Below are positions 32,867-52,651 of a stretch of DNA of 64,000 nt, one piece after another. The DNA comes from Mesorhizobium sp. M2A.F.Ca.ET.046.03.2.1 (GTDB lineage: Bacteria > Pseudomonadota > Alphaproteobacteria > Rhizobiales > Rhizobiaceae): NCBI RefSeq assembly GCF_003952425.1, contig NZ_CP034449.1, positions 868,001 to 932,000 of the forward strand, read 5' to 3'. The notes under the pieces were generated by a model. That model worked only from the letters and a program-made list of their open reading frames with translations. It had not been told where the DNA came from and searched no databases. Made by a program: the position numbers and the translations under genes. Position 1 is the stretch's first letter; the number at the start of each line of letters is the position of its first letter.

Positions 32867-32935
32867 ATCAGTAGTTCCCCTTGTTATCGCGCTTTGTGTT
32901 TTGCTCAAAGGCTGCGCGGATAGCGTTAAGGGAAA

Positions 32936-32982: not shown

Positions 32983-33023
32983 GTTTCGCGAGAATGTGTG
33001 CACCCGTCAGTATGGGTCGAAGG

Positions 33024-35044: not shown

Positions 35045-35812
35045 TCAGTGGTAGTAGATACCGCCGTCGACGTTCAGCGCCTGACCGGTGACGAAGGCCG
35101 ACAGGTCCGAGGCGAAGAACAGCACCGGACCGATGATATCCTCGGGCGCGCCGAGGCGCTTCAGCGCCGCGACGTCCTCCCAATGGCGGATCGCGGCTTC
35201 GCTTCCCAGATTGTTCTTGCCCATCTCGGTCAGGATGATGCCGGGGCAGATTGCGTTGACCGTGACGCCGTCCATGCCGACCTCCTGCGCCAGCACGCGG
35301 GTGAGCGTGATCACCACCGCCTTGGTCGCCGCATAGTGGCCTTGCGTCGGCACGCCCTGCCGGCCGGCGATCGAAGCGATGTTGATCACCCTGCCCGACT
35401 TCCTGGCGCGCATATGCGGCAGCACCGCCTGGCACATCATCAGCACGCCCTTGGCGTTGACGTCGAAATGCGCGTCCCAATTGGCCTCGTCGAGATCTTG
35501 CAGCAGGCTGGGCTTGAGGATGCCGGCGTTGTTGACCAGCACGTCGATGCTGCCTGCCTCTTCAAGCAGGGCCTGCGCGGTCGCCTCGATGTCCTTCTTC
35601 TTGCTGACGTCCATCTTATAGACATAGGCCTTGCGGCCCGCGGCCTCGATCTCGCCCCTGGTCACGTCGAGTTCCGCCGCCTGCGACGGCAGATCGGTGA
35701 TGGCGACATCGAAGCCGGCTTCGGCAAGCCCCTTCGCGAGCGCCCTGCCGATGCCGCGGCTGGCGCCGGTGACGAGAGCCGTCTTGCCCTTGGCTTCAGG
35801 AAGAATGGTCAT
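35045..35812 (-). CDS. SDR-family oxidoreductase of the CUT2 operon
   Basis: The protein has 255 residues. Classical motifs are TGASRGIG, NNAG, catalytic YAATK, and a C-terminal NVDGGIYYH. ATG 35812 overlaps the PfkB kinase stop by four bases. It is the last gene of the operon that runs from 42972 leftward: SDR, class II aldolase, binding protein, ATPase, two permeases, kinase and this SDR. It probably oxidises or reduces a sugar or polyol intermediate. Confidence 0.88.
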   Translation of the reverse strand: MTILPEAKGKTALVTGASRGIGRALAKGLAEAGFDVAITDLPSQAAELDVTRGEIEAAGRKAYVYKMDVSKKKDIEATAQALLEEAGSIDVLVNNAGILKPSLLQDLDEANWDAHFDVNAKGVLMMCQAVLPHMRARKSGRVINIASIAGRQGVPTQGHYAATKAVVITLTRVLAQEVGMDGVTVNAICPGIILTEMGKNNLGSEAAIRHWEDVAALKRLGAPEDIIGPVLFFASDLSAFVTGQALNVDGGIYYH

Positions 35813-36774
35813 GCTGCTTCCACCTTTGATGTCTTGACCGGAAGCGAATTCATCGCCGCGACCGTGTCGTCGAATGAAACGAGTTTGCCGTCGGAACCGA
35901 GCCCCATCGCCACCTTGGCGGCGACCGCGCTGGCAAAACGCGCGGACTGCCTGAGGTCCCAACCTCTGACGACGCCGACGATGATGCCCGCCGTGAAGGA
36001 ATCGCCGCAGCCCGTTGTGTCGAAGACCTCGGCCTCGAAGGCCGGCAGATGGAAATCTTCGCCATGTTCGGGCGAGACATGAACGCCGTCGGCGCCCAGC
36101 GTGATGATGCAGTTCTTCACGCCTCTCGCCTTGAAGAAGGCCGCGACGCGGGCCGGATCGCGGTCATACGCCATTTCGCCGGCTTCGTCGATGCTGGGCA
36201 CGAAATAGTCGATGTAAGGAAGGCACGGCTCGACCAGCTTCCACGTCTCGGGCGTCGCCTGGATGAGATCGAAGGTGGTGACGCGTCCAAGCTCCTTGGC
36301 GCGCTTCAACAGCCTGACGGTCGGTTCGCCATCGAAGCGCTTCAGGAGCCCGGTGCCGCCGACATGGACGACGGTCGCATCGAGCGCGGCATCGAGATCG
36401 GCATCGGCGACCTCGAACAAGGTGGCAGTGCCCGGCACATGCAATGCCGGCCGCTCGCCGTTCGGCCGCACCGGCAGGATGGTGGACGAGGTCTGGACGC
36501 TGCCGTCGCGGCGAACGAGGCTCGTCTCCAGGCCGTATTTCTTCAGCTTGGCGAGAAACCAGTCGCCCATGTCGTCGGTGCCGAGCGTGGTGACGGCCCT
36601 GGTCTTCAGGCCCAGGATGGCGCAGTCCATGCCGGTCGCGCCGGCGGTGCCGGCGACCGTCATGCGGATCTCCTCGATATAGTCGGCGCGACCGCCTTCG
36701 GGGATACGCGAGACCGGCCGTCCGAGGATGTCGAGAACGTAGAAGCCGATCGAGCTGACGTCGAATTGGGGCAT
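35809..36774 (-). CDS. PfkB-family carbohydrate kinase
   Basis: The protein has 321 residues. An N-terminal GTAGATGMDCAILGLK region is followed by GTDDMGDWFLAKLKKYG and by the C-terminal PfkB signature DTTGCGDSFTAGIIVGVV, whose second Asp is the catalytic base and whose Gly run makes the anion hole. It would phosphorylate a sugar or keto-sugar after uptake. It lies 21 nt behind the second permease gene and is coupled to the SDR downstream, so the imported compound is probably phosphorylated by it. Confidence 0.9.
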   Translation of the reverse strand: MPQFDVSSIGFYVLDILGRPVSRIPEGGRADYIEEIRMTVAGTAGATGMDCAILGLKTRAVTTLGTDDMGDWFLAKLKKYGLETSLVRRDGSVQTSSTILPVRPNGERPALHVPGTATLFEVADADLDAALDATVVHVGGTGLLKRFDGEPTVRLLKRAKELGRVTTFDLIQATPETWKLVEPCLPYIDYFVPSIDEAGEMAYDRDPARVAAFFKARGVKNCIITLGADGVHVSPEHGEDFHLPAFEAEVFDTTGCGDSFTAGIIVGVVRGWDLRQSARFASAVAAKVAMGLGSDGKLVSFDDTVAAMNSLPVKTSKVEAA

Positions 36775-36795
36775 GGCTGACTTGACCTTTCGAAT

Positions 36796-37782
36796 TCAAT
36801 GGGCGGCGCGACGTAGGCCGAAGCTTGCGGCCAGCACCAGGAAGACGAGCACGCCGATGCCGACCTGCTGCCAGTAGAAATTCCAGCCGACCAAAAGCAG
36901 CCCGTTCTTGACGATGGCGAGCAGCAGCACGCCGAGCAGCGTGCCGATGACCGAAGGCTTGCGCTCGCGACTGAGCGTCGTGCCGATGAAGGTGGCGCCG
37001 ATGCCGTCGAGCAGGAAGGCATTGCCGGAGAGCGGCACGTAGGACTTCACCGTCGCCGACAAGAGGATGCCGGTGACGCCGGCAAGCAGCGCGCACAGAA
37101 CATGCACCATCGACAATTCGCGCGGCACGCGGATGCCGGAATACCAGGCCACGCCCGGCTGCGCGCCCATCGCCTGGACATAGCGGCCGAAGACCGAGCG
37201 ATGCAGCAGGACATGAACGGCGAAGACAAGGACGATCAGCACGATGACCGGCGTCGGTACGCCGAACAGAGCGGTGCGGGCGATGGCGTTGAACTGGTCC
37301 GCTGCATAGCCGCTCGTGAGATAAATCGGCTGGCCGCCGCTGGTGGCGAGCTGCTGCGTGCTCTGGCCGATGAAGAGGACGCCGAGCGTCGCCAGGAACG
37401 GACTGATGTTAAGCCTGGTGATCAGGATCGCGTTGAGGATGCCGACGATCAAAGCGGCGCCGAGTCCGCCAGCGACGCCGACGATGCCGCTATAGCCGGC
37501 GGCCAGAAGCATGACGAAGATCATGCTTGCCATGTCGACCGAGACGCCAACCGAGAGATCGATGCCGCCCGACGAGATGACGATGGTGAGGCCGAGCGCC
37601 ACGATCGCCAGCATGACGACATTGTTGACCAGCACGTTGAAGAGGTTGGCCGGCGTGAGAAAAGTCGGACTCGCCACCGAAAAGAAGATGACGATGGCCG
37701 CGAAGGCGATGAGCACACTGTATTTGGCGAGGAAGCCGCGCAGGCTCACCTTGGCGGTGGTTTCATTGGCCGAGATGCTCAT
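36796..37782 (-). CDS. CUT2 sugar-type ABC transporter permease (second)
   Basis: The protein has 328 residues and eight to ten membrane segments. It has the RbsC-like pattern VIFFSVASPTFLTPANLFNV, SSGGIDLSVGV and a NAILITRLNISPFLATLG stretch. ATG 37782 overlaps the stop of the first permease. Having two different permeases is typical of CUT2 importers of the rhamnose or AI-2 layout, unlike ribose systems with one. Confidence 0.9.
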   Translation of the reverse strand: MSISANETTAKVSLRGFLAKYSVLIAFAAIVIFFSVASPTFLTPANLFNVLVNNVVMLAIVALGLTIVISSGGIDLSVGVSVDMASMIFVMLLAAGYSGIVGVAGGLGAALIVGILNAILITRLNISPFLATLGVLFIGQSTQQLATSGGQPIYLTSGYAADQFNAIARTALFGVPTPVIVLIVLVFAVHVLLHRSVFGRYVQAMGAQPGVAWYSGIRVPRELSMVHVLCALLAGVTGILLSATVKSYVPLSGNAFLLDGIGATFIGTTLSRERKPSVIGTLLGVLLLAIVKNGLLLVGWNFYWQQVGIGVLVFLVLAASFGLRRAAH

Positions 37783-38810
37783 CGCGAACCCTCCGAACCG
37801 CGGGCAAAGGATGTGATCGCCACCACCAGCAGGATCAGCGCGCCCTGCACGCCGTTGACCCAGTAGCTGGAGACGTTGAGCAGTTGGAAGCCGTTCGCGA
37901 GCAAGCCGATGAACAACACGCTGAGCAGCGTGCCCCCCATGGTCGGCACGAAGCGGCGCGAGAAGACGGTGCCGAGCAGCGCCGCCGCCAGCACCGACAG
38001 AAGCAGCTCGCCGGAGCCGGGCGTGCTGGCCGACAGGCGCGAGACGGTGAGGATGCTCGCCACCGCCGCGCAGAAGCCGCTCAGCACATAGGTGAAGGAC
38101 ACGTAGAACGGCACGCTGATGCCCGCCGCGCGCGCCGCTTCCGGGTGTCCGCCGACGGCGTAGAGCCTGAGCCCGAACGACGTGCCGTGAACGACCACGA
38201 TCATGATGGCGGAGAAGACGATCAGCGCCCAGGCAAGCGCGGAGATGCCGAGGAAGCTGCCCGACACCAGCACGCCGAGCAGCGGGGAGGATGCGCCGAC
38301 GACCGTGTTCTGGGTGAGGGTGAGTTCCATGCCGGCCGCGACATTGAGCACGGCAAGTGTTGCGAGCAGCGGCAGGATGCCGAGCCCGACCACGGCAAGG
38401 GCGTTCAGCGCGCCGACCGCCATGCCGACGGCAATGGCCGCGATCACCGAGAGGAAATCGCCATAGCCCATCGACAGAAGCGTCGCATAGATCGCGGCGC
38501 AAAGCCCCATATTGGCGGCGATCGAAAGGTCGATGCCACCTTCGGTGACGTCGGAGCCGCCGCCGATGATGACGGCGGTCATGCCATAGGCGAGCACGCC
38601 CAGGATCGCCGACTGCTCGACGACGTTGATCAGGTTGAAGGTCGAGGTGAAGCCCGGCGCGAAGACGACGAAATAAGCCATGATCGCGGCGAAGGCGGCG
38701 ATCGCGCCGAGCCGCACGACGAGCGCGCCGAAGCGGCGGCCGGCGCTCTTGGCCGCGGCCTGCTTTTCGTCGGAAACACCGACGTCTGTGTGGAGGACAG
38801 TCGCGCTCAT
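37779..38810 (-). CDS. CUT2 sugar-type ABC transporter permease (first)
   Basis: The protein has 343 residues. An N-terminal cytoplasmic tail (to about residue 30) is followed by about ten membrane segments, with GGGSDVTEGGIDLSIAANMG and NALAVVGLGILPLLATLAVL, the RbsC family core. ATG 38810 overlaps the ATPase stop (ATGA), and the gene is likewise coupled to the second permease. Confidence 0.9.
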   Translation of the reverse strand: MSATVLHTDVGVSDEKQAAAKSAGRRFGALVVRLGAIAAFAAIMAYFVVFAPGFTSTFNLINVVEQSAILGVLAYGMTAVIIGGGSDVTEGGIDLSIAANMGLCAAIYATLLSMGYGDFLSVIAAIAVGMAVGALNALAVVGLGILPLLATLAVLNVAAGMELTLTQNTVVGASSPLLGVLVSGSFLGISALAWALIVFSAIMIVVVHGTSFGLRLYAVGGHPEAARAAGISVPFYVSFTYVLSGFCAAVASILTVSRLSASTPGSGELLLSVLAAALLGTVFSRRFVPTMGGTLLSVLFIGLLANGFQLLNVSSYWVNGVQGALILLVVAITSFARGSEGSR

Positions 38811-40333
38811 GCAGCCACTCCATCCATGGTCGAACGTGCGCCCGACGAAGCCGCCAGCAGCACATCGCTGTTCATCGCAGAACCGGAGAAGCTGCCGGCA
38901 AGCCGGCCGCGATAGACGACCAGCACGCGGTCGCAGACGCCGACCAATTCGAGCAGGTCGGAGGACAGAAGCAGGATCGCCGCGCCCTCGCCCGCCAGCC
39001 GATTGAGAAGATTGTAGATCTCGACCTTGGCGCCGACATCGACGGCCACCGTCGGCTCGTCCAGCACATAGACGCGCGACTGGCAGCTCAGCCATTTGGC
39101 GATCGCCACCTTCTGCTGGTTGCCGCCGGAGAGCTCGCGCACCAGCGCGTCGCGATGCGGTGTCTTGATCGACAGCTCCTTGATCAGACTGTCCACCGCC
39201 TGGTTCTCGCTGCCGCGGCTGACCAACCCGCTCTTGGAATAGCGGCGCAGGCTGGCCAGGGAAATGTTCTCGCGCACCGAAAGGCCGAGCGCCACGCCAT
39301 GGGCGCGGCGGTCTTCCGGCAGCATGGCGATGCCGTCGCGCACCGCTTTGACGGGCGTCGACAGGGCAAGCTCCCTCCCCTCGACCTTGACCCGGCCGCC
39401 CTCGGCAGTCTTGAGGCCGAACAGGCACTGGACGATCTCCTTGGCGCCTGAGCCGAGCAGGCCGGTGAGGCCGACGATCTCGCCGGCGCGGACGTTGAAA
39501 CCGATATTCTCGAAGCTGCCGCCGAGACGAAGCTTGGAAACCTCCAGCACCGGCGCGCCTAAATTGACCGAGCGCTTCGGGAACATCTCGCCGACATCGC
39601 GGGCGATCATCATCGCAATGATCTCGTCGATCGGCGTCTGACGCGGGTCGACCGTGCCGACATCGGTGCCGTTGCGCATCACGGTGACGCGGTCGCAGAG
39701 CTTCTCGATTTCCTGCATGTAGTGGGAGATGAAGACCACGGCGATGCCGTCGTCGCGCAGCCGGCGCAGCACGTCGAACAGGCTGTCGACCTCGCGCTTG
39801 ACGAGCGCCGCCGTCGGCTCGTCGAGCACCAGCACCGAGGCTTTTTGCGCCAAGGCGCGGGTGATCTGCACGACCTTCTGCTGCGCCGTGGTGAGATCTT
39901 TCACAAGCGTTCCGGCCGGCAGTTCCATGCCGAAGAAGCGCTTCAGCAGGTCCGCGGCCCTGCGCTCCATGGCGCGGCGGCTTACGAACGGGCCAAGGCC
40001 GATCTCATGGCCGAGGAACACGGCCTCGCCGACCGTCGCGGTAGGCACCAGCAGCCTGTCCTGGTGGATGAAGTGCACGCCGAGCTTTTCGACCGAGGCC
40101 GGTGTCAGCGAAGTTACGGTCTCGCCGTTGATGAGGATCGAGCCGCTGTCCGGCTTGATGATGCCGGCCAGCACCTTGATGATGGTCGACTTGCCCGCGC
40201 CGTTCTGGCCGACAAGGCCGAGGATCGAGCCGCGCGCGATCTCGAGGTTCGCGTTTTCCAAGGCGCGTACCGGACCGAACCGTTTCGAAATGCCTGTCAT
40301 CGATACAGCAATGTCACGCTTTGCTGTCTGCAT
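38807..40333 (-). CDS. CUT2 sugar-type ABC transporter ATP-binding protein (double)
   Basis: The protein has 508 residues with two ATPase halves. The first has Walker A GQNGAGKST and LVLDEPTAAL. The second has the degenerate Walker A GLLGSGAKEI usual in RbsA/MglA proteins, signature LSGGNQQKVAIAKW and VLDEPTVAVD. ATG 40333 is used; the residues upstream of it do not look like protein. It powers the importer with the two permeases and the binding protein. Confidence 0.92.
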   Translation of the reverse strand: MQTAKRDIAVSMTGISKRFGPVRALENANLEIARGSILGLVGQNGAGKSTIIKVLAGIIKPDSGSILINGETVTSLTPASVEKLGVHFIHQDRLLVPTATVGEAVFLGHEIGLGPFVSRRAMERRAADLLKRFFGMELPAGTLVKDLTTAQQKVVQITRALAQKASVLVLDEPTAALVKREVDSLFDVLRRLRDDGIAVVFISHYMQEIEKLCDRVTVMRNGTDVGTVDPRQTPIDEIIAMMIARDVGEMFPKRSVNLGAPVLEVSKLRLGGSFENIGFNVRAGEIVGLTGLLGSGAKEIVQCLFGLKTAEGGRVKVEGRELALSTPVKAVRDGIAMLPEDRRAHGVALGLSVRENISLASLRRYSKSGLVSRGSENQAVDSLIKELSIKTPHRDALVRELSGGNQQKVAIAKWLSCQSRVYVLDEPTVAVDVGAKVEIYNLLNRLAGEGAAILLLSSDLLELVGVCDRVLVVYRGRLAGSFSGSAMNSDVLLAASSGARSTMDGVAA

Positions 40334-40401
40334 GGCCGTCAATCCTGGTTGGATGTGACGGGCAGCCACATGGGCGCGGCTGCCCGCCGTTTCGTTCCGT
40401 C

Positions 40402-41403
40402 CTATTTAACGCCAGCCTTCTCGGCGGCGTCGAGGAACGGCTTTCCTTTTTCGACGGCATTTTCCTTGTTGATCAGCACCGAAGGCACGAAAGTGAAGGG
40501 CGGCACCTTCTGGCCGGCCAGATATTTCGCGGCATTGTCGACCGAGGTCTTGCCGATCTCATAGGGCTGCTGCGCCGCGACCGCGCCGGCCGGCGACTTC
40601 GGATCCATCACCATCTTGATGACTTCAGGGCTGCCGTCGATGCCGTAGGTCTTGACCTCGTTGCGGCCGGCGGCTTCGACCGCCTGCGTGGCGCCGATCT
40701 GCGGCACGTCCCAGCAGGCCCAGACCGCGCCGATCGAACCCTTCTCGGGCGACTTGGTCAGCATGTCGGTGACGTTGGAATAGGCGCTCTGCACCGTGTT
40801 CGGAATGACGTCGCGCAGCTCGGGCTCGACGATCTTCACATCCGGGAACGAGGTCAGCACATATTTCAGCTGATCGTAGCGGATCTTGCAGACCGGCACG
40901 CTGTAGAAGCCGTTGAAGACCAGCACATTGCCCTTGCCGCCCATGTCGGCGACCATCTGCAGCGCGATCTCGGCGCCGATATTGTAGTTGTTGGAGGTGG
41001 TGTTGTTGATGGCGTGCGGCGTCGCGGTATCGACCGTGAACAACGGGATGCCGGCGTCGCGGATCTTCTGCAGCCACGGGTTCAGCACTTCGAGATTGCC
41101 GAGCTGCTCGATGATCGCGTCCGGCTTCTGCGCGATCAGCGTCTGCAGCTGCGCGATCTGCTGCTGGTCCTTGCGGCCGGCGTCGAGCGCGATGACTTCA
41201 CCGCCGAGCTCCTTGACGCGGTCCTGGATGCCTTTGAAGGCCATCAGGTCCCAATAATGGTCGGTGCCGATGGCGGAGACGCCGATGCGCTTGCCTTTGA
41301 GCGACAGTTCCTCAGCGCTGGCGCCCGAGATGGCGGCCAGGCTGCAAGCCGCCGCCAACCCCAGAGCGAGCGCCTTGACGAGGCCTTTCATCGAATTTGT
41401 CAT
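40402..41403 (-). CDS. CUT2 sugar-type ABC transporter substrate-binding protein
   Basis: The protein has 333 residues. The signal peptide (KALALGLAAACSLAAISGAS) ends in AEEL. The mature part is a type-I sugar-binding fold (KRIGVSAIGTDHYWDLMAFK, ALDAGRKDQQQIAQLQTLIA, TYGIDGSPEVIKMV). GGGAGGAAA precedes the ATG. The ligand is not evident; the family covers ribose, rhamnose, xylose, polyols and AI-2. It follows the aldolase gene by 105 nt and probably shares its promoter. Confidence 0.9.
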   Translation of the reverse strand: MTNSMKGLVKALALGLAAACSLAAISGASAEELSLKGKRIGVSAIGTDHYWDLMAFKGIQDRVKELGGEVIALDAGRKDQQQIAQLQTLIAQKPDAIIEQLGNLEVLNPWLQKIRDAGIPLFTVDTATPHAINNTTSNNYNIGAEIALQMVADMGGKGNVLVFNGFYSVPVCKIRYDQLKYVLTSFPDVKIVEPELRDVIPNTVQSAYSNVTDMLTKSPEKGSIGAVWACWDVPQIGATQAVEAAGRNEVKTYGIDGSPEVIKMVMDPKSPAGAVAAQQPYEIGKTSVDNAAKYLAGQKVPPFTFVPSVLINKENAVEKGKPFLDAAEKAGVK

Positions 41404-41508
41404 TTCATTTCCTCCCTTGTTGATCGCTCCGGGCCTTCCCGGAGGATATGCGAAACAGTCAGTTGCTGCTCCAGCCCTTTGTTGGTCGCTTCGGGCAGAG
41501 CCCTCCGC

Positions 41509-42168
41509 TCAGGCAGCGGCGTCATTGTCGCGCAGGCCGTAGCTCGCCATGCGCTTGATGACGTTTTCGATCTCCTCGTCGGACAGGATTGGCGGCTCGC
41601 CGATCTGCAGGGCGCCGTGATACTGGCGCGCCAGCGTCTCGACCTCGACGGCCAGCCACATCGCCTGGGCGAGGCTCGACCCGACGGCGATCATGCCGTG
41701 CTGGGCAAGCAGGCAGGCCTTGCGGCCGCGCAATGCCTCCACCGCGTGCGCCGAAAGCTCCGCCGTGCCGAAGGTGGCGTAGGGTGCGCAACGAATGTCG
41801 CTGCCGCCGGCGACCGCGACCATGTAATGGATCGCCGGTATCTTCCGGCCCATGATGGCGATCGTCGTGCAATAGGTCGGATGCGCGTGGACGACTGCGT
41901 TGATCTCGGGCCGCGCCTTCATGATGTCGAGATGGAAACGCCATTCGCTGGATGGCGGCAGGCGTCCGTCGACCTCGCCGTCCCAGCTCATGAAGACGAT
42001 GTCCTCGGGCACCAGCGTGTCATATGGCGTGCTCGTCGGCGAGATCAGCATGCCCTCGCCATGGCGGCAGCTGATGTTGCCTGATGTGCCCTGGTTGATG
42101 CCGAGTGCGTTCATCTCGATGCAGGCGTCGATGATGGCCTGGCGCACATCTCGGTCCGAAACGGTCAT
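41509..42168 (-). CDS. Class II aldolase/adducin family (fuculose-phosphate-aldolase-like)
   Basis: The protein has 219 residues. It has GTSGNISCR for phosphate binding, SSEWRFH with the catalytic Glu, HAHPTYCT with two zinc-ligand His, and CLLAQHGMIAVG with the third zinc-ligand His. It should perform zinc-dependent retro-aldol cleavage of a phosphorylated or acid sugar. ATG 42168 replaces an upstream TTG. It sits 27 nt behind an SDR gene and ahead of the CUT2 importer, with a PfkB kinase in the same operon, so SDR then kinase then aldolase is a plausible route. Confidence 0.88.
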   Translation of the reverse strand: MTVSDRDVRQAIIDACIEMNALGINQGTSGNISCRHGEGMLISPTSTPYDTLVPEDIVFMSWDGEVDGRLPPSSEWRFHLDIMKARPEINAVVHAHPTYCTTIAIMGRKIPAIHYMVAVAGGSDIRCAPYATFGTAELSAHAVEALRGRKACLLAQHGMIAVGSSLAQAMWLAVEVETLARQYHGALQIGEPPILSDEEIENVIKRMASYGLRDNDAAA

Positions 42169-42195
42169 GCGATATTCCAATCCTTGCTCAGTCCG

Positions 42196-42972
42196 TCACC
42201 AGGCCGTGTAGCCGCCATCGATCGACAGGATCGCGCCCGTCACGTAGCTCGAGGCCGGCGACGCCAGGAACAGGATCGCCGAAGCGATCTCCTGCGGCGT
42301 GCCCAGCCGGCCCATCGGCGTCATGTCGATCCAGGTGTTGAAGAGTTCGGGACGCTCGCGCATCTTCAGCGTCATGTCGGTGCCGACATAGCCCGGCGCC
42401 AGCGCGTTGACGCGCACGCCTGACTTCGCCCACTCGACCGCAAGCGCCTTGGTCATCATGTGCACGGCGCCCTTGCTCACCATGTAGGACGGCGCGGTCT
42501 GCGGACGGTTGATGATCAGCCCCGACATGGAACCCAGATTGACGATCGAGCCCTTCTTGCGGTCGACCATCGAACGGCCGAAGGCGCGCGAGGCCCAGTA
42601 GACGCCGTTGACGTTGACATCCATCACCAGGCGCCATTCTTCGTCCGGCGTGTCGAGCGCGGTGTTGAGGCGCGCGATGCCGGCGCTGTTGACCAGGATA
42701 TCGACCTGGCCGAAATCCGCGGCGACTGCGGTTGCCGTCGCCTCGACGGCTTGCGGATCGGTAACGTTCAACACGCGGCCATCGACGCTCGCGACGCCAG
42801 CGGCCTGGAGCGCCTCGGCAGCGGCCTTCAGCCCATCCGCATTCATGTCGAGCAGGACGATCCTCGCGCCGCAAGTCCCCAGCGCCTTGGCGGCCTCGAG
42901 ACCGATGCCGCTGGCGCCGCCGGTGACGACGGCAACCTCGCCCGTCAGGTCGAATTGCGACCGGTAATCCAT
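42196..42972 (-). CDS. SDR-family oxidoreductase, first gene of the CUT2 operon
   Basis: The protein has 258 residues. Motifs are TGGASGIG, NSAG, the catalytic YMVSK, and PGYVGTDMT; the C-terminus is ILSIDGGYTAW. This matches polyol and sugar-alcohol dehydrogenases of the sorbitol/xylitol type, an inference from general similarity. It is preceded by a promoter with a 16-bp palindrome at 43128-43143. Confidence 0.88.
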   Translation of the reverse strand: MDYRSQFDLTGEVAVVTGGASGIGLEAAKALGTCGARIVLLDMNADGLKAAAEALQAAGVASVDGRVLNVTDPQAVEATATAVAADFGQVDILVNSAGIARLNTALDTPDEEWRLVMDVNVNGVYWASRAFGRSMVDRKKGSIVNLGSMSGLIINRPQTAPSYMVSKGAVHMMTKALAVEWAKSGVRVNALAPGYVGTDMTLKMRERPELFNTWIDMTPMGRLGTPQEIASAILFLASPASSYVTGAILSIDGGYTAW

Positions 42973-43098
42973 GCACGTCCTCCATCAGGACAGGCTTGAG
43001 CGCGGGCAAAACGCTGCCCTCGCCGCCGAAGCGGCGCCGCAAGCCGGCCGTCCTGATAATGCCTCCGGGGTCAGGCTCCTCCCGACCCCATGACAGGG

Positions 43099-43143
43099 AC
43101 GTTACAGAAGCTTCCCGGGTCCGTCAATCTGGTTATAACCAGA
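43099..43143 (-). promoter_or_regulatory. Promoter and GntR/UTRA operator of the CUT2 operon
   Basis: On the minus strand a perfect 16-bp palindrome TCTGGTTATAACCAGA (43143-43128) abuts TTGACG (43127-43122). A 17-nt spacer leads to TAACGT (43104-43099), a fair -35/-10 pair for the SDR at 42972. The core TGGTTATAACCA recurs at 49374-49385 in front of the CoA-ligase operon. The GntR/UTRA gene next door is the likely reader. Confidence 0.6.
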
Positions 43144-43172
43144 AAACGGAATCTTTTTTGGATGTGCGCAAT

Positions 43173-44027
43173 TCAGGTGCGATCGACACCGTTCACCGTC
43201 GCCGACGGCTGCTCGACCGCCATGTGGATGCGGGCGACAGAGGAGTTGTAGAAGGCCTCGTAATATTCAAGCGCGGCGCCGTCGGAATCATAGGCGATCG
43301 ACTCGATCTCGATCAGCGGCGTGTTGGCGGCGACACCCATCTGATCGGCTTCTTCCTTGGTGGGAAGCGCGGCACGCAGCCAGCGGTCGGCACGCTTCAC
43401 CGTCAGGCCGAAGACGGCGCGGATGGTGCCGAAGATCGACTGGTTTTCCGACAGGATGTTCTCCAGCCCCGGGACCCGATGCCCCGGCAGGCTGATACGC
43501 GTCATGGTGATCGGCGTGCCGTCGGTCATGTAGACGCGGCTGATGCGGACCACGCTGCCATTGGCGGGAATGCCGAAGACCTTGGACTCCTTCTCGCTCG
43601 GCGGGCAGCGGTAGATCTCCAGCGTGCGGGTCGAGACCTTGTGGCCCTTCGCGGTCAAATCGTCGAACACGCCGAGATTGGCGGTCATGAAGTCGACATG
43701 CTCGCGGGGAGCGGCGACGAACATGCCCTTGCGCGGCATCTTGATGATGCGGCCTTCATTGGAGAGCGATCCGATCGCGGCGCGCACGACGGGACGAGAG
43801 ACGCCGAAGAAATCGCAAAGCGCCTGTTCCGAGGGAATGCGCGAATTGGCTGCCAGCAGACCGGTGTTGATCGCCTCCTCGACTTGGTTGCGCAGCTGCA
43901 CCCAGAGCGGGGCCGCCTCGTCGCGGTTGAGCTGAACCTTGGAGCCGATCGAGCGGAAAGCCTCGGCCGCCTCGGCATCTTCCTGGTCGTAACGAGGACG
44001 CCCGCGCGTTCTGGTTGCCTGTTCCAT
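43173..44027 (-). CDS. GntR/UTRA (HutC-type) transcriptional regulator
   Basis: The protein has 284 residues. It has a winged helix (PLWVQLRNQVEEAINTGLL, IPSEQALCDFFGVSRPVVR) and a C-terminal UTRA ligand domain (from about residue 115, with VVRISRVYMTDGTPI and PLIEIESIAYDSDGAALEYY). ATG 44027 is used. It is the last gene of the CoA-ligase operon and lies next to the promoter of the CUT2 operon, so it can control both and itself. Confidence 0.9.
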   Translation of the reverse strand: MEQATRTRGRPRYDQEDAEAAEAFRSIGSKVQLNRDEAAPLWVQLRNQVEEAINTGLLAANSRIPSEQALCDFFGVSRPVVRAAIGSLSNEGRIIKMPRKGMFVAAPREHVDFMTANLGVFDDLTAKGHKVSTRTLEIYRCPPSEKESKVFGIPANGSVVRISRVYMTDGTPITMTRISLPGHRVPGLENILSENQSIFGTIRAVFGLTVKRADRWLRAALPTKEEADQMGVAANTPLIEIESIAYDSDGAALEYYEAFYNSSVARIHMAVEQPSATVNGVDRT

Positions 44028-44079
44028 TCGGGTCCCGCCGCAAATCATTTGCCGCGACTCAAAAAGCGGCAGCGCCTCC

Positions 44080-45320
<1,241 letters not shown>

Positions 45321-45324
<4 letters not shown>

Positions 45325-45773
45325 GCGCCTTGCAGCGGTACGGTGAACACCGTGGCCGTGCCGGTCAGGCAAAGCTCGCCCTGGCCGTTGCGCACGCTGG
45401 TCTCGATCTTGCAGATCGGCTTGTCGGGGCGCACTTCCTTGACCTCCACGCGGCCGGTGATCTCCTCGTCAACGCCAACGGCCTTGACGAACTTCCAGGC
45501 CACTTCGAGGAACACGGTCCCGGGGCCGGGCAGATCCTCGGCGACCAACGCGTTGAGGATGCCGGAGGTGACGCCGCCCTGCACGATGAGCTTGCCGAAC
45601 ACCGACTTCTCGGCCAGCGCGCGGTCGTAGTGCAGGGGATTGCGATCGCCGGTGATGCCGGTGAAGGCCTCGATGTCGCTCATCCTTGTGCGTCGCGTGC
45701 GCTCGGCGAAGGCGCCGACCTGCGGACGGCCTTTCACGACACCCACCCAACCGTCCTTCGTTTCGATGCTCAT
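45321..45773 (-). CDS. MaoC-like hotdog-fold enoyl-CoA hydratase
   Basis: The protein has 150 residues and a single hotdog domain. The R-hydratase motif GDRNPLHYD supplies Asp43 and His48 (D-x4-H), followed by GKLIVQGGVTSGI. It should add water across a trans-2-enoyl-CoA. ATG 45773 overlaps the DUF35 stop and its own stop overlaps the MFS start. A MaoC-type hydratase next to a DUF35 protein and a Cys-less thiolase is the combination known from steroid side-chain cleavage (ChsH1/ChsH2/Ltp2). Confidence 0.87.
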
Positions 45774-46210
45774 TGCGGCTTCTCCTCTGCTCTGGGTTCG
45801 ACTGGTCTGAAGGCCGGCAGGACACGGCCGCCGATGGCGGTCGGCGCAAGCAACAGCATGTCTCCGATCTGTTGCGGCCGTGTGCCGGGCAGGATGAAGC
45901 TCAGCATCGTCGGGCCTTCGGCCAATTCGACCAGGCCGACCACATACGGTGCCGCGGGCAGCCAGCCGGGATGGCCGGGTTTATGCACCTTGGAAAAGGA
46001 TTTGAGCCGTCCCCTGCCCGATGCGTCTTTCCAGACCAGCCGCTTGCTCCAGCAATGCGGGCAGATCGGGCGCGGATAGAAGACGGCCTTGCCGCAACCC
46101 TCGCAATGCTGGATGGTCAGCCGGCCCTCGGCGGCGGCATCCCAGAACGGCCTGGACAGCGCGGTGATCGTCGGGCCAGGGGTTTTCAGGGTGTTGAGAT
46201 CGACGGACAT
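45770..46210 (-). CDS. Zn-ribbon/OB-fold protein (DUF35)
   Basis: The protein has 146 residues. The N-terminal rubredoxin-like zinc ribbon CEGCGKAVFYPRPICPHC has two C-x2-C knuckles; the C-terminal OB fold starts near GRLKSFSKVH. DUF35 proteins partner with thiolase-superfamily enzymes, and in the Ltp2 aldolase the DUF35 subunit is essential. Its ATG overlaps the stop of the thiolase-like gene by one base, so the two are made together, supporting a complex. Confidence 0.9.
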   Translation of the reverse strand: MSVDLNTLKTPGPTITALSRPFWDAAAEGRLTIQHCEGCGKAVFYPRPICPHCWSKRLVWKDASGRGRLKSFSKVHKPGHPGWLPAAPYVVGLVELAEGPTMLSFILPGTRPQQIGDMLLLAPTAIGGRVLPAFRPVEPRAEEKPQ

Positions 46211-47361
46211 CAGGCGGCCCCCAACACCAGGGCGGTCGCTTCGCTCATCGTCGCGCCATTGCCGGTGACCAGCGCGAGCCAGGCCTTGCCGATCTGGCGT
46301 TCACCCGCCTCCCCGCGCAGCTGGCGTACCGCTTCGACGACATGGGTCATGCCGCCGGCAAGGTCGGGCTGGCCGAAGCCGAGCTGGCCGCCATGTGTGT
46401 TGAGCGGCTTGTCGCCCTTGTGCGAAAGGTCGTGGTCGCCGAGCCACGCGCCGAACTGGCCCGGCGCGCAGAGGCCGGCATCCTCGATCGTCGTCGCAAC
46501 CATGATCGTGTAGCAGTCGTAGAGCGACAGAAGGTCCATCTCGTCAGCCTTCGTGCCGGACTGAGCGAAGGCCCTTGCCATTGCGCTCTTCAGCGGACCG
46601 GAAGTCAGGTGTGGGGCCTGGCTGACCGCGCGGTGCGTGACCTTCTCGCCGGCGCCGAGCAGATGGACAGGTGGCCTGCGCAACGACCGCGCGCGTTCGG
46701 CCGAGGTGACGACGACCGCTTCGCCGCCGGCGACCGGCATGACGATTTCGAGGAGATGCAGCGGCGAGGCGATCATCGGCGAGGCAAGCACCGCTTCGAC
46801 ATCGGCCGGCTTGCCATAGAAGATGGCGTCGGGGTTGAGCTGCGCGCTGGCGCGCGCCGCCGCGGCGATCAGCGCGAAATCTCGCGCGGTCGAGCCGTAT
46901 TCCGCCATATGCGCCTGCATCAGCAGCGCATAGGAGATGTTGGCGCCCGAAGCGCCGAAAGGCACGTCGAACTCGCGGATCGGATTGCGGTTGGGCGAGC
47001 GGGGTGCAACCTCCTCGCGGTTGTTGGCGAGCACGCACAGCACCGCCTCGCACATGCCGGCCTCGATCGCGGCCGCCGCGCGCCAGACCATGCCTGCGCC
47101 GGACGCGCCGCCAAGATCGACGACATTGGCCATGGTCGGCGCGAGTCCCAGATATTCGGCTATGGTCGCCGGAACATGCTGCGGCGTCTCGCCGACCTGC
47201 GGCCCGACCAGCAGCCCGTCGATAGCCGCCGGCTCCAGCCCGGCGTCGAGCACCGCCAGGCGCGAGACCTCGGCGATCATCTCCAGCGTCGTCACGCCGC
47301 TGGTCAGGCGCTGCGGCTTCAACTCGCCGATGCCGACGACCGCTCCCTTTGCCCGGCTCAT
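46210..47361 (-). CDS. Thiolase-superfamily lipid-transfer-like protein without nucleophilic Cys (Ltp2-type)
   Basis: The protein has 383 residues and follows the SCP2/non-specific lipid-transfer thiolase pattern. The nucleophile motif, normally with Cys before Ala-Ser-Gly, reads LGGASGAG at residues 83-90 (Gly85). The middle motif, usually HDCFT, is YDCYT at 281-285, and NTHGGQLG at 321-328 keeps a His. Loss of Cys and gain of Tyr fits retro-aldolases such as Ltp2 rather than a thiolase. It is coupled to AACS upstream and DUF35 downstream. ATG 47361 is used. Confidence 0.85.
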   Translation of the reverse strand: MSRAKGAVVGIGELKPQRLTSGVTTLEMIAEVSRLAVLDAGLEPAAIDGLLVGPQVGETPQHVPATIAEYLGLAPTMANVVDLGGASGAGMVWRAAAAIEAGMCEAVLCVLANNREEVAPRSPNRNPIREFDVPFGASGANISYALLMQAHMAEYGSTARDFALIAAAARASAQLNPDAIFYGKPADVEAVLASPMIASPLHLLEIVMPVAGGEAVVVTSAERARSLRRPPVHLLGAGEKVTHRAVSQAPHLTSGPLKSAMARAFAQSGTKADEMDLLSLYDCYTIMVATTIEDAGLCAPGQFGAWLGDHDLSHKGDKPLNTHGGQLGFGQPDLAGGMTHVVEAVRQLRGEAGERQIGKAWLALVTGNGATMSEATALVLGAA

Positions 47362-49304
47362 GCCGCCTTGCTCCGGTCGAGCGCGCGGTATTCGTCGAGG
47401 CAGGCGGGATTGGCGAGCGAAGCCATGTTCTTGACCGGCTTGCCTTCGAGCGTGGCGCGGGCGGCACCCTCGACGCGCTTGCCGTTCAGCGTATAGGGCA
47501 CGGCCTGCACCGCGTGGATGCGATGCGGCACGTGACGGGGCGAGGCGCCTTCGCGGATCGCTTTGCGAATTCGCATGGCGAGCTCGGGGGTCAGCGCAAA
47601 GCCGTCGTTGAGCTTGACGCAGAGCACGATCTCCTCGTCGCCTTCGATGGGCGCGCCAAAGACCAGGCAATCCTCGATCTCGGCAAAATTCTCGCAGGCG
47701 GCGTAGATTTCCGCCGTGCCGATCCGCACGCCGCCGGGCTTCAGCGTCGTGTCCGAGCGGCCGTGGATGACGCCAGAGCCGTAAGCCGTCATCTCGGCGA
47801 CGTCGCCATGTGTCCAGATCTCGCGGCGTGCGGCGAAGTAGGTGGCGTGATAGCGCGCGTCGCCGTCCTTGCCCCAGAAGGCCAGCGGCATGGACGGGAA
47901 CGGCTCGGTGCAGACGAGATCGCCCTGCCGGCCGATGACCGGCGCATTGCGCTCGTCCATGACGCCGACGGCGAGGCCGAGCCCTTTCACGGTCAGCTCG
48001 CCGCGCCGCACAGGATGGATCGGCGATCCCAGCAGGAAGCAGCCGATGATCTCGGTGCCGCCGGAGATCGAAGCGAAGATCATGTCGCGCTTCACATGAT
48101 CGTAGACCCAGTCGAACTGCCCGGGTGAGACGGGCGCACCGGCCGACAGCAGCGAACGCAGCGACGAGAGATCATGCAGGCGCCCCGGCGCGTAACCTTC
48201 GGCGGCAAGTGTCGCCAGGTATTTAGGACTGGTGCCGAAATGCGTGACGCGAGCGCGCTCGGCCATTTTCCAGAGCGGACTGGGGTCGAGGCGATCGGCC
48301 GATTTCAGGATCGGCGCGCCGTCATAGAGCACCACGCTCGCGCCGCAGGCCAGACCTGAGATCAGCCAGTGATACATCATCCAGGCGGTGTTGGTGTACC
48401 AGCTCATGACGTCGCCCGGGCGGACGTCGCCGTGGAGCAGGTGCTCCTTCAGGTGCTGGAGCAGCACGCCGCCGGCGCGATGGACGATCGCCTTCGGCGC
48501 GCCTGTCGTGCCGGAGGTGTAGAGCACATAGGCCGGGTGGTCGAAGGGCACGCGCTCGAAACTGAGAGGAGCGTCGCGGCCGAAATCGTCGAACGAAATG
48601 CGATCCGCCGCGCAATCCGGCTTGGTGCCCGGTTCGCCGGTCAGCACCAGCGTCGTCACCGTCGGCATCGCGGCGACGATCTCGGCCAGCCTGGCGGAGA
48701 TGTCGTGCTCCTTGCCCGCATAGCGGTAGCGCGGCGCGGCGAACAGCACCTTGACGCCAATCTGGCCGAGGCGGTCGACGATCGCCGCGGCGCCGAAATC
48801 AGGCGAGCAGGACGACCAGACGGCGCCGACGGAAAGCGTCGCCAAAAGCGCCACGAGGCCCTCGACGCGATTGGGCAGGATACCGCCGACGCAATCGCCC
48901 TTGCCGACGCCGGCCGCGCGCAGGCCATGCGCCGTCCTGGCGACGAGCCGGCGCAATTCGCCCAGTGTGATGGTCTGGAAATGGCCACTCTCGTCGACCT
49001 CGATGAGAGCAACCCTCTCCTCATCGCCGCGCAGCAGGTTTTCCGCGAGATTGAGTGTCGCTTCCGGCAGGAAGCGACTCCCGGTCATCGGCGCATTGTC
49101 GTCGCGCAGGAAGGCGATCCCGCCCGGATCTCCAATGACCTCGGCGAAATCCCACAGCGCCCGCCAGAAGGCGCCGGGATCGCCGATCGACCAGCGATGC
49201 AGCGTCTCGTAGTCGCGCGGATCGAAGCCGTTGGCCATCGAAAAGCGCGCAAGATTGGACGATTGGAACGCGGCCGGCGCCGGCGTCCAAAGCACGGATG
49301 ACAT
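47358..49304 (-). CDS. Acetoacetyl-CoA synthetase (acetoacetate--CoA ligase)
   Basis: The protein has 648 residues, as expected for acetoacetate-CoA ligases. The N-terminal ACAS-type region has TLNLAENLLRG, followed by the AMP-binding motif VLYTSGTTGAPKAIVH. ISGGTEIIGCF and SDTTLKPGGVRIGTAEIY follow, and the catalytic Lys lies in YTLNGKRVEG near the C-terminus. GGGAGGAAA precedes ATG 49304. It would activate acetoacetate or a related beta-keto or short-chain acid. It is the first gene of the operon. Confidence 0.87.
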   Translation of the reverse strand: MSSVLWTPAPAAFQSSNLARFSMANGFDPRDYETLHRWSIGDPGAFWRALWDFAEVIGDPGGIAFLRDDNAPMTGSRFLPEATLNLAENLLRGDEERVALIEVDESGHFQTITLGELRRLVARTAHGLRAAGVGKGDCVGGILPNRVEGLVALLATLSVGAVWSSCSPDFGAAAIVDRLGQIGVKVLFAAPRYRYAGKEHDISARLAEIVAAMPTVTTLVLTGEPGTKPDCAADRISFDDFGRDAPLSFERVPFDHPAYVLYTSGTTGAPKAIVHRAGGVLLQHLKEHLLHGDVRPGDVMSWYTNTAWMMYHWLISGLACGASVVLYDGAPILKSADRLDPSPLWKMAERARVTHFGTSPKYLATLAAEGYAPGRLHDLSSLRSLLSAGAPVSPGQFDWVYDHVKRDMIFASISGGTEIIGCFLLGSPIHPVRRGELTVKGLGLAVGVMDERNAPVIGRQGDLVCTEPFPSMPLAFWGKDGDARYHATYFAARREIWTHGDVAEMTAYGSGVIHGRSDTTLKPGGVRIGTAEIYAACENFAEIEDCLVFGAPIEGDEEIVLCVKLNDGFALTPELAMRIRKAIREGASPRHVPHRIHAVQAVPYTLNGKRVEGAARATLEGKPVKNMASLANPACLDEYRALDRSKAA

Positions 49305-49372
49305 GGATTTCCTCCCGCAATGCAGGCCGGGCTCTTTGCCGCGACCTTGCCTGCCGATGCATTTCATGATTA

Positions 49373-49394
49373 TTGGTTATAACCAGAATGTCAA
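49373..49394 (-). promoter_or_regulatory. Promoter and GntR/UTRA operator of the CoA-ligase operon
   Basis: On the minus strand a consensus TTGACA (49394-49389) is followed by a spacer that contains the palindrome TGGTTATAACCA (49385-49374) and then TAATCA as a -10 candidate. A repressor bound there would block the polymerase directly. The same 12-bp palindrome lies at 43130-43141. The site also lies 54 nt upstream of the divergent thiolase start, so it could control both directions. Confidence 0.65.
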
Positions 49395-49438
49395 GCGGCG
49401 ATCACGCCCAAGCGGACCGCGCTGCCGGAGGAACAGAC

Positions 49439-50613
49439 ATGGACGCCTTTTACATCGTTGCCGCGAAGCGGACGCCCATCGGCAAGCTGAACGGCGCGTT
49501 CGCCGGTCTGTCGGCGGCGGAGCTGGGGGCGCAGCTTATCCAGGCGATGCTGGCCGAAAAGCAGCTTGCGCCCGATGCCGTCGGCGAGGTGATCATGGGC
49601 CAGGTGCTGACCGGCGGCGCCGGGCAGAATCCAGCCCGGCAGGCTGCTCTCAAGGCCGGCCTGCCGGTCGGGTGCCCGCCATGACCGTCAACAAGGTCTG
49701 CGGCGCCGGGCAGAAGTCGATCCATCTCGCCGCCCAGGCCATTCGCTGCGGCGACGCCGACTGCGTGATCGCCGGCGGACAGGATTCGATGACTTCGGCG
49801 CCACATGTCATTCACGGGGTGCGCGCCGGCATCCGCATGGGCGACCGTACGGTGAAGGATTCCATGATCACCGACGGTCTGTGGGACGCCTTCCATCAGG
49901 TGCATATGGGCGTCACCGCCGAAGCGCTGGCGCAGCGCTACCAGATCACCCGCGAGGAACAGGACAGGTTCGCGCTGCGCTCGCAGGAGAAGGCGGACGC
50001 CGCCATCCAGGCTGGCAGGTTCGACGACGAGATTGCGCCTGTGTCGATCAAGGCCAGGCAAGGCGATGTCGTCATCGAGCGTGACGAGCATCCCAACCCC
50101 TCCACAACGATGGAAGGCCTTGGCCGGCTGAGACCGGTCTTCGATGCGGCGGGGACGATCACGGCCGGCAACTCATCCGGTCTCAACGACGGCGCCGCCG
50201 CGGTGCTTGTGATGTCGGAGGCGCGGATGAAGGAACTCGGCCTGACACCCCTCGCCAGCATCGCCTCTTATGCTTCTGCCGGCGTCGAGCCGATGGACAT
50301 GGGCCTCGGTCCCGTCGCGGCCTCGCGGCGCGCGCTCGACAAGGCCGGCTGGCGCGCGTCCGATCTCGACGCGATGGAGATCAACGAGGCCTTCGCCGCG
50401 CAAGCCATCGCCGTCAATCGCGAGATGGGCTGGAACGAGGACATCATCAATATGAGCGGCGGCGCCATCGCGCTTGGCCATCCGCTGGCCGGCTCCGGCT
50501 GCCGCATCGTGGTGACGCTGCTGCACGAGATGGTCCGGCGTGGAGCGAAGAAGGGCTTGGCCTCGCTCTGCATCGGCGGCGGCCAGGGTGTCGCGATCTG
50601 CCTGGAGCGGTGA
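49439..50613 (+). pseudogene. Acetyl-CoA acetyltransferase (thiolase II), one-base frameshift
   Basis: GGAGG precedes ATG 49439. Codons 1-78 read a normal thiolase start (MDAFYIVAAKRTPIGKLNG) to AGLPVG. A missing G in the run at 49670-49672 shifts the frame to a stop at 49684. The other frame resumes with MTVNKVCGAG (nucleophile Cys), NEAFAAQ, ALGHPLAGSG and CIGGGQGVA. With one base restored the gene is 391 codons, the normal length. It would split acetoacetyl-CoA into two acetyl-CoA, matching the divergent AACS. It is either a true frameshift or a base-call error. Confidence 0.85.
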
Positions 50614-51848: not shown

Positions 51849-52651
51849 ATGCGCTTCAAGGACAAGATCGTTCTGGTGACGGGCGCCGCCGGCGCCATCG
51901 GCTCCGCGGCGGTGCGCCGCTTCGTCGAGGAAGGCGCGACAGTCGCCGTCGCCGACCTCGACGGGACCCGTGCAGAGGCCCTGGCAACGACATTCGGCGA
52001 TCGCGACGAAGCCTTCGCGGTGGACGTCGCCGACCCGGCGTCGGCGGAAGGCATGGTCCAGGCGGTGGCCGCACGCTTCGGCCGTATCGATGTGCTATTC
52101 AACAATGCCGGCATTTCCGGAAAGGTCGCGCCGGTCCACGAGCTGAGCACCGAGGACTGGCAACGCATCGTCGGCATCAACCTCAACGGCATGTTCTACG
52201 TCCTGCGCGCGACGGTGGCGACCATGATCGCTGGCAAGATCAAGGGATCGGTGGTCAATATGGGCTCGTCCATGGCCGGCTGGGACGTGCTGTCCGGTGG
52301 CGCCGGCTATGCCTCGACCAAGCACGGCGTGGTCGGCCTGACCAGGATCGCGGCCTCGACGCCGCTGCCTATGGCATTCGCGTCAACGCGATTTGCCCCG
52401 GGGTCATCGAGACCCGGCTGGGCGTGCCGGCGCGGGACCAGGCAGCCTATGAAGCCGGCATTCGCCGTTTCGCCGACCGCATTCCGCTGCGCCGTATCGG
52501 CCAGCCCGAGGATGTCGCCGCCGCCGTCGCCTTCCTGGCCTCGGACGATGCCCGCCACGTCACCGGCGTCGACTGGCTGCTCGACGGCGGACAGACATTG
52601 CAAAGCTGGGCGAACGCGCCCGATGCGGACGCTTTCCCGCGATTTGTCTGA
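51849..52651 (+). pseudogene. SDR-family oxidoreductase, one-base frameshift
   Basis: GGAGGCAAGAG precedes ATG 51849. The first 170 codons have TGAAGAIG, NNAG and catalytic YASTK. At the CC of 52354-52355 one C appears to be missing: restoring CCC gives ALDAAAYGIRVNAICPG and continues through DWLLDGGQTL to a stop at 52651. The repaired length is 267 residues, normal for the family. Without the repair the protein loses its substrate-binding C-terminus. Confidence 0.82.

Follow-up and report, generated by a model that had tools for sequence, protein, structure and literature searches.

Within a 64,000-nucleotide window of the Mesorhizobium sp. M2A.F.Ca.ET.046.03.2.1 genome (contig NZ_CP034449.1, positions 868,001 to 932,000), two adjacent operons, here called A and B, occupy positions 35045–50613 together with a divergent thiolase gene. 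Operon A encodes a CUT2-type importer, a sugar kinase, an aldolase and two short-chain dehydrogenases (SDRs), and operon B encodes an acyl-CoA module, a carrier and a GntR/UTRA regulator. We are confident that A and B form one regulon in this genome and work together. The more specific reading, that this regulon is one pathway importing and breaking down an S-methyl sugar or polyol, appears to us evenly poised. We treat A and B as one pathway because they are co-inherited across the genus, among importer loci and on plasmids, also when they are unlinked.

Gene content, order and strand agreed with the preliminary description of the locus when compared with open reading frame (ORF) positions and NCBIfam and Pfam scans. 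The start codons of the ATPase, aldolase, AACS and GntR genes are chosen inner ATGs, and their ORFs open further upstream.

35045–35812, minus strand: SDR2, short-chain dehydrogenase, last in operon A (NCBIfam SDR matches; co-conserved)
35809–36774, minus strand: PfkB-family sugar kinase (PF00294, 138 bits; best NCBIfam match IolC-N, 112 bits, below its cut-off of 300)
36796–37782, minus strand: CUT2 permease B (PF02653)
37779–38810, minus strand: CUT2 permease A (PF02653)
38807–40333, minus strand: CUT2 double ATPase (ORF open to 40369, start inferred; XylG/AraG/RbsA-type, near full length, below equivalog cut-offs)
40402–41403, minus strand: CUT2 solute-binding protein, SBP (PF13407; structural alignment to 3l49 and 4wt7)
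41509–42168, minus strand: class II aldolase, FucA type (ORF open to 42180; NF005984, 268.7 bits, above its cut-off of 264; FucA structures, 1fua and others, 241 bits)
42196–42972, minus strand: SDR1, galactitol dehydrogenase relative, first in operon A (332 bits to 2wdz, full length)
43130–43141, no strand: operator 1, TGGTTATAACCA, 158 bp before SDR1 (exact site; comparable sites before the A operons of other genera)
43173–44027, minus strand: GntR/UTRA regulator, operon B (ORF open to 44048; PF00392 and PF07702)
44080–45324, minus strand: MFS carrier, operon B (PF07690)
45321–45773, minus strand: MaoC-type hydratase, operon B (PF01575)
45770–46210, minus strand: DUF35/ChsH2-type protein, operon B, with zinc ribbon and OB fold (PF12172, PF01796; C-x2-C-x10-C-x2-C read from the sequence)
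46210–47361, minus strand: thiolase-like aldolase, Sal type, operon B, with a YDCY motif and without the nucleophilic Cys (motif and PDB alignment)
47358–49304, minus strand: acetoacetate–CoA ligase family enzyme (AACS), first in operon B (ORF open to 49367; TIGR01217, 707.5 bits, above 520.9)
49374–49385, no strand: operator 2, TGGTTATAACCA, between AACS and the divergent thiolase (exact site)
49439–50613, plus strand: divergent acetyl-CoA C-acetyltransferase, with a frameshift near 49672 in this assembly (family scans; frame comparison with related loci)

The overlapping genes reported earlier were found as four-base overlaps at three junctions (ATPase with permease A, permease A with permease B, and PfkB with SDR2), and ATGA was read from the sequence at the permease A overlaps. 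The importer has a Peripla_BP_4-type SBP, a fused double ATPase and BPD_transp_2 permeases, the components of a CUT2 ABC importer. The divergent acetyltransferase of the preliminary description is present on the plus strand but does not form a single ORF, since the portion beginning at 49439 and the portion ending at 50613 lie in different frames. The two halves share one frame in 51 of 52 related loci, a set in which some genomes are counted twice, and the exception, L075, is also split between frames.

Shared operator and co-inheritance

In the 7,372,807-base genome, TGGTTATAACCA with at most one mismatch occurs at only two sites, both exact and at the two operon promoters, and the pair therefore exceeds chance; the reversed pattern, searched in the same way as a control, gave five sites. 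This whole-genome search bears out the earlier proposal that one palindromic operator is common to both operons. The regulator combines a GntR helix-turn-helix with a UTRA domain, and its presumed target promoters hold a palindrome, which together suggest a regulator of the HutC type.

The shared operator is widespread but not universal among relatives, where sites were scored as matches to TGGTTATAACCA out of 12 and judged against single-base shuffles. The best site before operon A scored 9–12/12 in most loci tested, often within TTTCTGGTNATNACCAGATT, in alpha-, beta- and gammaproteobacteria. Genome G085 has an 11/12 site upstream of its A operon, L139 a 12/12 site before the aldolase, and the betaproteobacterial L112 a 12/12 site in the GntR–SDR1 interval, beyond the region scored for SDR1; the best site before SDR1 reached only 9/12 in L128 and L136. 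At the AACS/thiolase promoter, scores of 10–12/12 were obtained in Mesorhizobium, Hoeflea-type, L127 and Rhizobium C4-type loci, with 9/12 in Marinomonas, no site of 9/12 or better in L126, and thiolase-side sites of 10/12 in L109 and 11/12 in L115. The Mesobaculum B operon had no promoter site of at least 10/12, the one 10/12 site of L201 lies inside an aldehyde dehydrogenase (ALDH) gene, and no convincing site was found in L120, L123, L124 or L129.

Evidence on co-occurrence was drawn from three sets (genus, named contigs and plasmids), of which the first two overlap in many genomes. Among 146 Mesorhizobium genomes, the regulator was matched in 35 (E 1e-30; including G273 and a 24% fragment in G245), B's thiolase-like aldolase in 34 (E 1e-140) and the SBP in 32 (E 1e-80). 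All 32 fall within the 34, so two genomes have the B marker only and none the A marker only. Both of these have fragmented assemblies (G276, about 630 contigs; G318, about 1310), and in G318 the contig breaks off within A. Of the 34 Mesorhizobium loci that we retrieved (L048–L081), 31 have the full run of genes between SDR2 and the thiolase inclusive, one is truncated where its contig stops, and two are remnants. The remnants, L066 (G273) and L081 (G245), retain the regulator, MFS and MaoC genes without most of A and B, and G273 has a second partial regulator 11 kb from the first.

Beyond the genus, the regulator was matched in eight of 199 genomes of the family sample. Three of other genera (G116, G013 and G117) carry the whole gene set at 49%–76% identity, and the matches include our own genome and Mesorhizobium G073. 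G085 has an A operon without SDR1 (L085) and a second, solitary regulator (L086), G193 a distant regulator only (L087), and G054 a regulator match. The two-operon trait is rare: across a class-wide sample of 385 genomes, only our own has either marker.

Named genomes scanned with an alignment of the SBP yielded 99 confirmed loci, of which we kept 80, many of them from Mesorhizobium genomes of the genus set. With A defined by PfkB and aldolase and B by the thiolase-like gene, A was present in 42 loci, B in 37, both in 37, A only in five (L123, L128, L136, L139 and L161) and B only in none, in a set selected by importer in which a B lacking the importer could not appear. The 37 B loci also held AACS (36), DUF35 (37), MaoC (36) and a thiolase (ThlC) match within the flank (36). 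Fourteen A+B loci lie outside Mesorhizobium (L109, L112–L119, L121, L122, L126, L127 and L133), in Taklimakanibacter, Paraburkholderia, Rhizobium, Geminicoccaceae, Aureimonas, Hoeflea/Pseudohoeflea, Jiella, Marinomonas and others, and in five of them (L109, L112, L113, L114 and L126) B has a different order or direction.

Twelve whole genomes were checked for B's aldolase. It was present in six, three known from loci (L112, L115 and L133) and three further ones, Vibrio penaeicida (G727), G085 and Mesobaculum (G726). Mesobaculum has B just beyond the first locus, whereas B is unlinked to A in Vibrio penaeicida, where the two are on separate contigs, and in G085, where about 1.9 Mb separates them. 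B's aldolase was absent at E 1e-60 from the other six, the genomes of L120, L123, L124, L129, L139 and L161. Independent occurrence of the operons with different regulators, which the preliminary description would have counted against a common regulon, is seen in part, in that these six carry either A or A's importer and aldolase but lack B's aldolase. Overall, its suggestion to look for the two gene sets together in other genomes was followed and revealed strong co-inheritance, including in rearranged and unlinked loci.

Plasmids gave a similar picture. B's aldolase was found on 11 plasmid records, and all eight proteobacterial ones carry the SBP (at least 69% identity) on the same record. 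The remaining three are from Rhodococcus, for which there was no SBP match among the matches listed (40 of 109). The two Rhodococcus plasmids viewed, L203 and L204, have a different ligase (29%–30% identical), and their B-like cluster consists of an acetate/acetoacetate-type ligase, a Sal-type aldolase with 65% identity, DUF35, MaoC and a thiolase, with two additional MFS carriers in L203. Importer queries went unmatched within the 21 kb taken from these two plasmids.

Importer ligand

The closest solved relatives of the SBP are 3l49 from Rhodobacter sphaeroides (74% identity) and 4wt7, Agrobacterium vitis Avi_5165 (55%). The predicted SBP structure was of low quality (mean pLDDT 55.7, 5 sequences) and served only to find PDB titles and identities. 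The 4wt7 structure has allitol bound, and sorbitol was modelled into its pocket (PMC10318746). The sorbitol-pocket residues listed there correspond, at an offset of 12, to H49, D52, R77, D125, V169, C172, R175, D256 and Q278 of the SBP, and the sole replacement among them is 4wt7 Phe63, which is W51 here. These residues are identical in 47 A-side and 35 sister-side rows (L139 among the latter), except for C172 (20/35), although H49, W51, D52 and D125 sit in the motifs used for scanning, so their constancy comes partly from selection. Q279, beside pocket residue Q278, differs in one row on each side. Our own genome has 62 matches to the Peripla_BP_4 family (E up to 0.001, some below the cut-off).

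In an SBP tree of 47 hand-chosen rows, importers of SfnB/NtaA loci form one side of a branch (99/97), and those of A+B, FMO and MTO/BisC/FCSD loci are mixed on the other; L139, an A locus, sits on a long branch with the SfnB/NtaA side. The sister-clade SfnB proteins scored 614.6, 591.8 and 548.4 bits, above the cut-off of 430.9, with that of Ewingella (L157) below it at 247.7, and the NtaA/DmoA monooxygenases scored 526–575 bits, above 279.7. Among eight annotated sister-type plasmid loci viewed, five have SfnB and four of the five also have LLM/NtaA monooxygenases; one SfnB locus additionally has MetNIQ-type genes and an O-acetylhomoserine aminocarboxypropyltransferase.

On the A side of the tree, other sulfur-type genes, S-oxide reductase genes among them, accompany some importers. 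Two loci of uncultured Rhizobiaceae (L124 and L129) combine the importer with a class II aldolase, SBP56, a sulfide-dehydrogenase-like flavoprotein, a BisC-type reductase, a GMC oxidoreductase and an FGGY kinase. SBP56 is assigned to the methanethiol oxidase family (PMC5739008), and we consider this set a candidate methylthio-sugar pathway of another make. L120 has a BisC-type reductase gene, L085 the sulfide-dehydrogenase-like flavoprotein after SDR2, and nine A loci an FMO. A family search with the small extra genes of L085, L120, L124 and L129 yielded little. At 40% identity or more, a sulfur-type gene was present in 25 of 38 non-A importer loci and nine of 42 A loci, with queries taken from L085, L113, L120, L124, L133, L134, L136 and L157, so that those within the sets count themselves. 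In 20 other CUT2 loci of our own genome, used as a control, none had such a gene, and there was one NtaA-like match at 35%–36%.

Because sulfur-acquisition clusters hold most of the sister clade, which shares the binding pocket, we lean slightly towards an organosulfur ligand. Importers of methylthioribose-like ligands do exist, as the Thermotoga lettingae SBP 4ry8, which is related to ours but only about 25% identical, is titled a 5-methylthioribose transporter component.

Proposed pathway and alternatives

In the following scheme we infer operator binding, repression, the substrate, each reaction and how the steps beyond the ligase are ordered. The GntR/UTRA protein would bind TGGTTATAACCA at both promoters, probably repressing until an effector appears, as is usual for the family. 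The compound imported would be organosulfur and sugar-like, with an S-methyl sugar or polyol (methylthio or methylsulfinyl) the likeliest candidate; SDR1 would oxidise it at C2 to a ketose, which PfkB would phosphorylate at O1. The FucA-type aldolase would then yield dihydroxyacetone phosphate (DHAP) and an aldehyde bearing the other end of the molecule. An ALDH, present in A or B in relatives and presumably elsewhere in this genome, could oxidise this aldehyde to an acid, the AACS-family ligase could activate the acid to its CoA form, and MaoC, DUF35, the Sal-type aldolase and the thiolase may convert it to acetyl-CoA units. The outline given earlier, in which a carbohydrate-like compound is imported, oxidised, phosphorylated and cleaved, finds support here, together with CoA activation, but the importer family points to an organosulfur ligand.

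The best sign of a connection between the operons is the ALDH gene, which sits with A in some relatives and with B in others, so that the aldehyde from A's aldolase may, once oxidised, become the acid for B's ligase. Sixteen of 42 A loci have an ALDH (at least 40% identity) after SDR2, either immediately or behind an FMO, and two of these loci are Mesorhizobium (L107 and L108). In the unlinked B strings of Vibrio penaeicida and G085, the order is AACS, thiolase-like gene, DUF35, MaoC, MFS, ALDH and thiolase.

FucA-type aldolases cleave 3R,4R ketose 1-phosphates, and the SDR1–PfkB–aldolase chain is self-consistent for 3R,4R ketoses, with or without sulfur, since the relative of SDR1 makes such ketoses. 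That relative, galactitol dehydrogenase, converts galactitol to L-tagatose (55%) and D-altritol to D-psicose (11%), both 3R,4R (PMC12193009). The same chain could serve a plain polyol. Galactitol or a deoxy-hexitol would give L-tagatose or a deoxy-ketose, C1 phosphorylation and cleavage would give DHAP and L-glyceraldehyde or lactaldehyde, and B would clear acetoacetate or a short acid made alongside, with no sulfur involved. The kinship of SDR1 to an L-tagatose producer, the aldolase score above the L-fuculose-phosphate aldolase subfamily cut-off and the binding of allitol by 4wt7 all fit this explanation. However, glyceraldehyde or lactaldehyde would require neither a CoA ligase nor a Sal-type aldolase, and sulfur-acquisition clusters house most of the importer's sister clade, whose pocket is nearly identical, so we regard a sulfur-free polyol as possible but unlikely.

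In operon B, the ligase passes the acetoacetate–CoA ligase family model and is predicted to belong to that family. A second AACS-family member elsewhere in the genome is 45% identical to it, and B ligases outside Mesorhizobium are 55%–73% identical. Sal enzymes cleave a beta-hydroxyacyl-CoA to acetyl-CoA and an aldehyde. B's thiolase-like protein carries Y281-D282-C283-Y284, GGASGAG at 84–90 in place of the thiolase nucleophilic Cys, and Q326 and Q331; its closest PDB chain is 9myr (325 bits, same motifs), with Ltp2-type 6ok1 at 155 bits. CtSal is reported to have YDCY with Tyr302 and Cys304, Gly at the nucleophile position, and Gln347 and Gln352, and Ltp2 to have a YDHF motif and the catalytic Tyr344 (PMC12329534). 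The protein thus has the YDCY, the Gly for Cys and the two Gln near the active site expected of Sal, with Gln in the NTHGGQLGFGQ region as in Sal, rather than the YDHF of Ltp2, and by these residues it appears closer to Sal than to Ltp2. The former label "Ltp2-type" does not suit it, and "Cys-less" holds for the nucleophilic position but not for the YDCY motif. DUF35 and MaoC are separate proteins.

The proposal that one fragment reaches acetyl-CoA through acetoacetate is unsupported, since family scans recognised no acetoacetate-forming enzyme among the locus genes, and relatives add an ALDH. Two other readings were considered and set aside. A deoxyribonate-type pathway would require a beta-keto acid cleavage enzyme, and none was recognised in the locus. 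A leucine/HMG-CoA source of acetoacetate had been suggested by genes upstream of B in Vibrio penaeicida that resemble liu genes in length only; we rejected it because their NCBIfam matches (an ETF-alpha-like protein, a weak Fe-S match, three genes without a match and a LivF-like ATPase beyond) are not those of a liu operon.

A possible substrate for the ligase is methylthioacetate, a tentative idea by analogy with the chemistry of the DHAP shunt (PMC10986504, PMC12632272). The aldolase would release methylthioacetaldehyde, an ALDH would oxidise it to methylthioacetate, and the ligase might accept CH3-S-CH2-COO- as a mimic of acetoacetate, CH3-CO-CH2-COO-. The Sal-type aldolase, MaoC and thiolase could then free methanethiol and acetyl-CoA.

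Alternatively, B may serve a separate short-chain acid taken in alongside the sugar, such as the acyl moiety of a conjugate, in which case A and B would be co-induced with no carbon passing from A to B. B's own MFS carrier, the TIGR00366-family protein between ligase and thiolase in the Sulfitobacter B, and the B-like cluster on the Rhodococcus plasmids, where ligase and importer findings differ as described above, are in line with such a role. The movement of ALDH between A and B suggests instead that A's aldehyde feeds B's ligase, and B's aldolase never occurred without A in the 80 importer-picked loci; we judge this separate role improbable. Chance transfer of two unrelated operons that came under one regulator would account for the patchy spread (34 of 146 Mesorhizobium genomes, our own genome alone in the class sample, and plasmids too), but it is very hard to credit given that linkage outlasts rearrangement in five of 14 loci outside Mesorhizobium, co-occurrence outlasts lost linkage in two genomes, and the operator stands at both promoters in several genera.

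Several observations tell against a single S-methyl sugar pathway. With regard to sulfur, no sulfur-type gene was found among the window genes scanned at 31664–52790, none of the sulfur-type queries matched in 23 Mesorhizobium loci, the link in A loci consists of the nine FMO genes only, and 13 of 38 non-A importer loci and three of eight sister-type plasmid loci, those of Rhizobium leguminosarum type, lack a sulfur-type gene. Most sulfur queries were drawn from loci that were then counted, the control was one genome, and the sole close liganded structure, 4wt7, holds allitol and no sulfur compound. Galactitol dehydrogenase also yields D-sorbose (17%) and L-fructose (18.5%), of other configurations, and converts only 2% of allitol (PMC12193009). 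Our own genome has no close ALDH copy (best 54%), and the divergent thiolase of the proposed pathway is frameshifted in this assembly. With regard to control, L112, L113, L114 and L116 had no above-chance site before AACS or the thiolase, and the unlinked B operons of Vibrio penaeicida and G085 had no promoter site of at least 10/12, which goes part of the way towards the separate control that the preliminary description had named as contrary evidence.

Related systems and neighbouring genes

No description of the two-operon set of about 15 genes was found in searches of the open-licence literature, outside which most subscription journals lie, in agreement with the earlier statement that this exact set is not known from a described pathway. 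The closest known systems resemble parts of it. In the DHAP shunt (MtnK, MtnA and Ald2, acting on 5-methylthioribose and 5-deoxyribose), an aldolase likewise cleaves a phosphorylated ketose to DHAP and a short (methylthio)aldehyde, and in the Escherichia coli strain studied the aldehyde is left as 2-methylthioethanol (PMC10986504). The operon A aldolase is a class II aldolase by family and may act on a ketose 1-phosphate; MtnK and MtnA had no match among the locus genes scanned. The locus differs in having a PfkB kinase with SDRs, a CUT2 importer and an acyl-CoA module. The Sal/Shy and Ltp2/ChsH2 steroid side-chain aldolases share a Cys-less thiolase fold, a DUF35 partner and MaoC alongside, with YDCY as in CtSal (PMC12329534), whereas in our locus the aldolase lies beside a sugar importer and an AACS-family ligase, and MaoC and DUF35 are separate proteins. 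Galactitol dehydrogenase of Rhodobacter sphaeroides D and the SBP 3l49 are close relatives of SDR1 and our SBP, and Cereibacter johrii (L161) has relatives of both in one A-type locus. The dehydrogenase was described from a mutant strain (PMC12193009).

Alpha-, beta- and gammaproteobacteria all have members with the two-operon set. Should the sulfur interpretation hold, it would tie methylthio sugars to carbon and sulfur cycling, give a natural role to a dehydrogenase known from a mutant strain, and place a Sal-type aldolase outside steroid metabolism. If the methylthioacetate reading is true, the locus would support aerobic growth on a methylthio sugar or polyol, supply an aerobic fate for the aldehyde that the DHAP shunt leaves, and provide the galactitol dehydrogenase family with a native function.

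Past the divergent thiolase, an SDR gene at 51849–52790 shifts from frame 0 to frame 2 around 52370. The frameshifts in the thiolase and this SDR, two within 3 kb, could reflect either assembly errors or decaying genes. On the other side, a gene of the HutH-like histidine ammonia-lyase family (33519–35015; 383 bits, below the equivalog cut-off) adjoins operon A, with an amino-acid-type binding protein nearby at 31664–33238. The HutH-like gene lies beside A in some, not all, Mesorhizobium loci.

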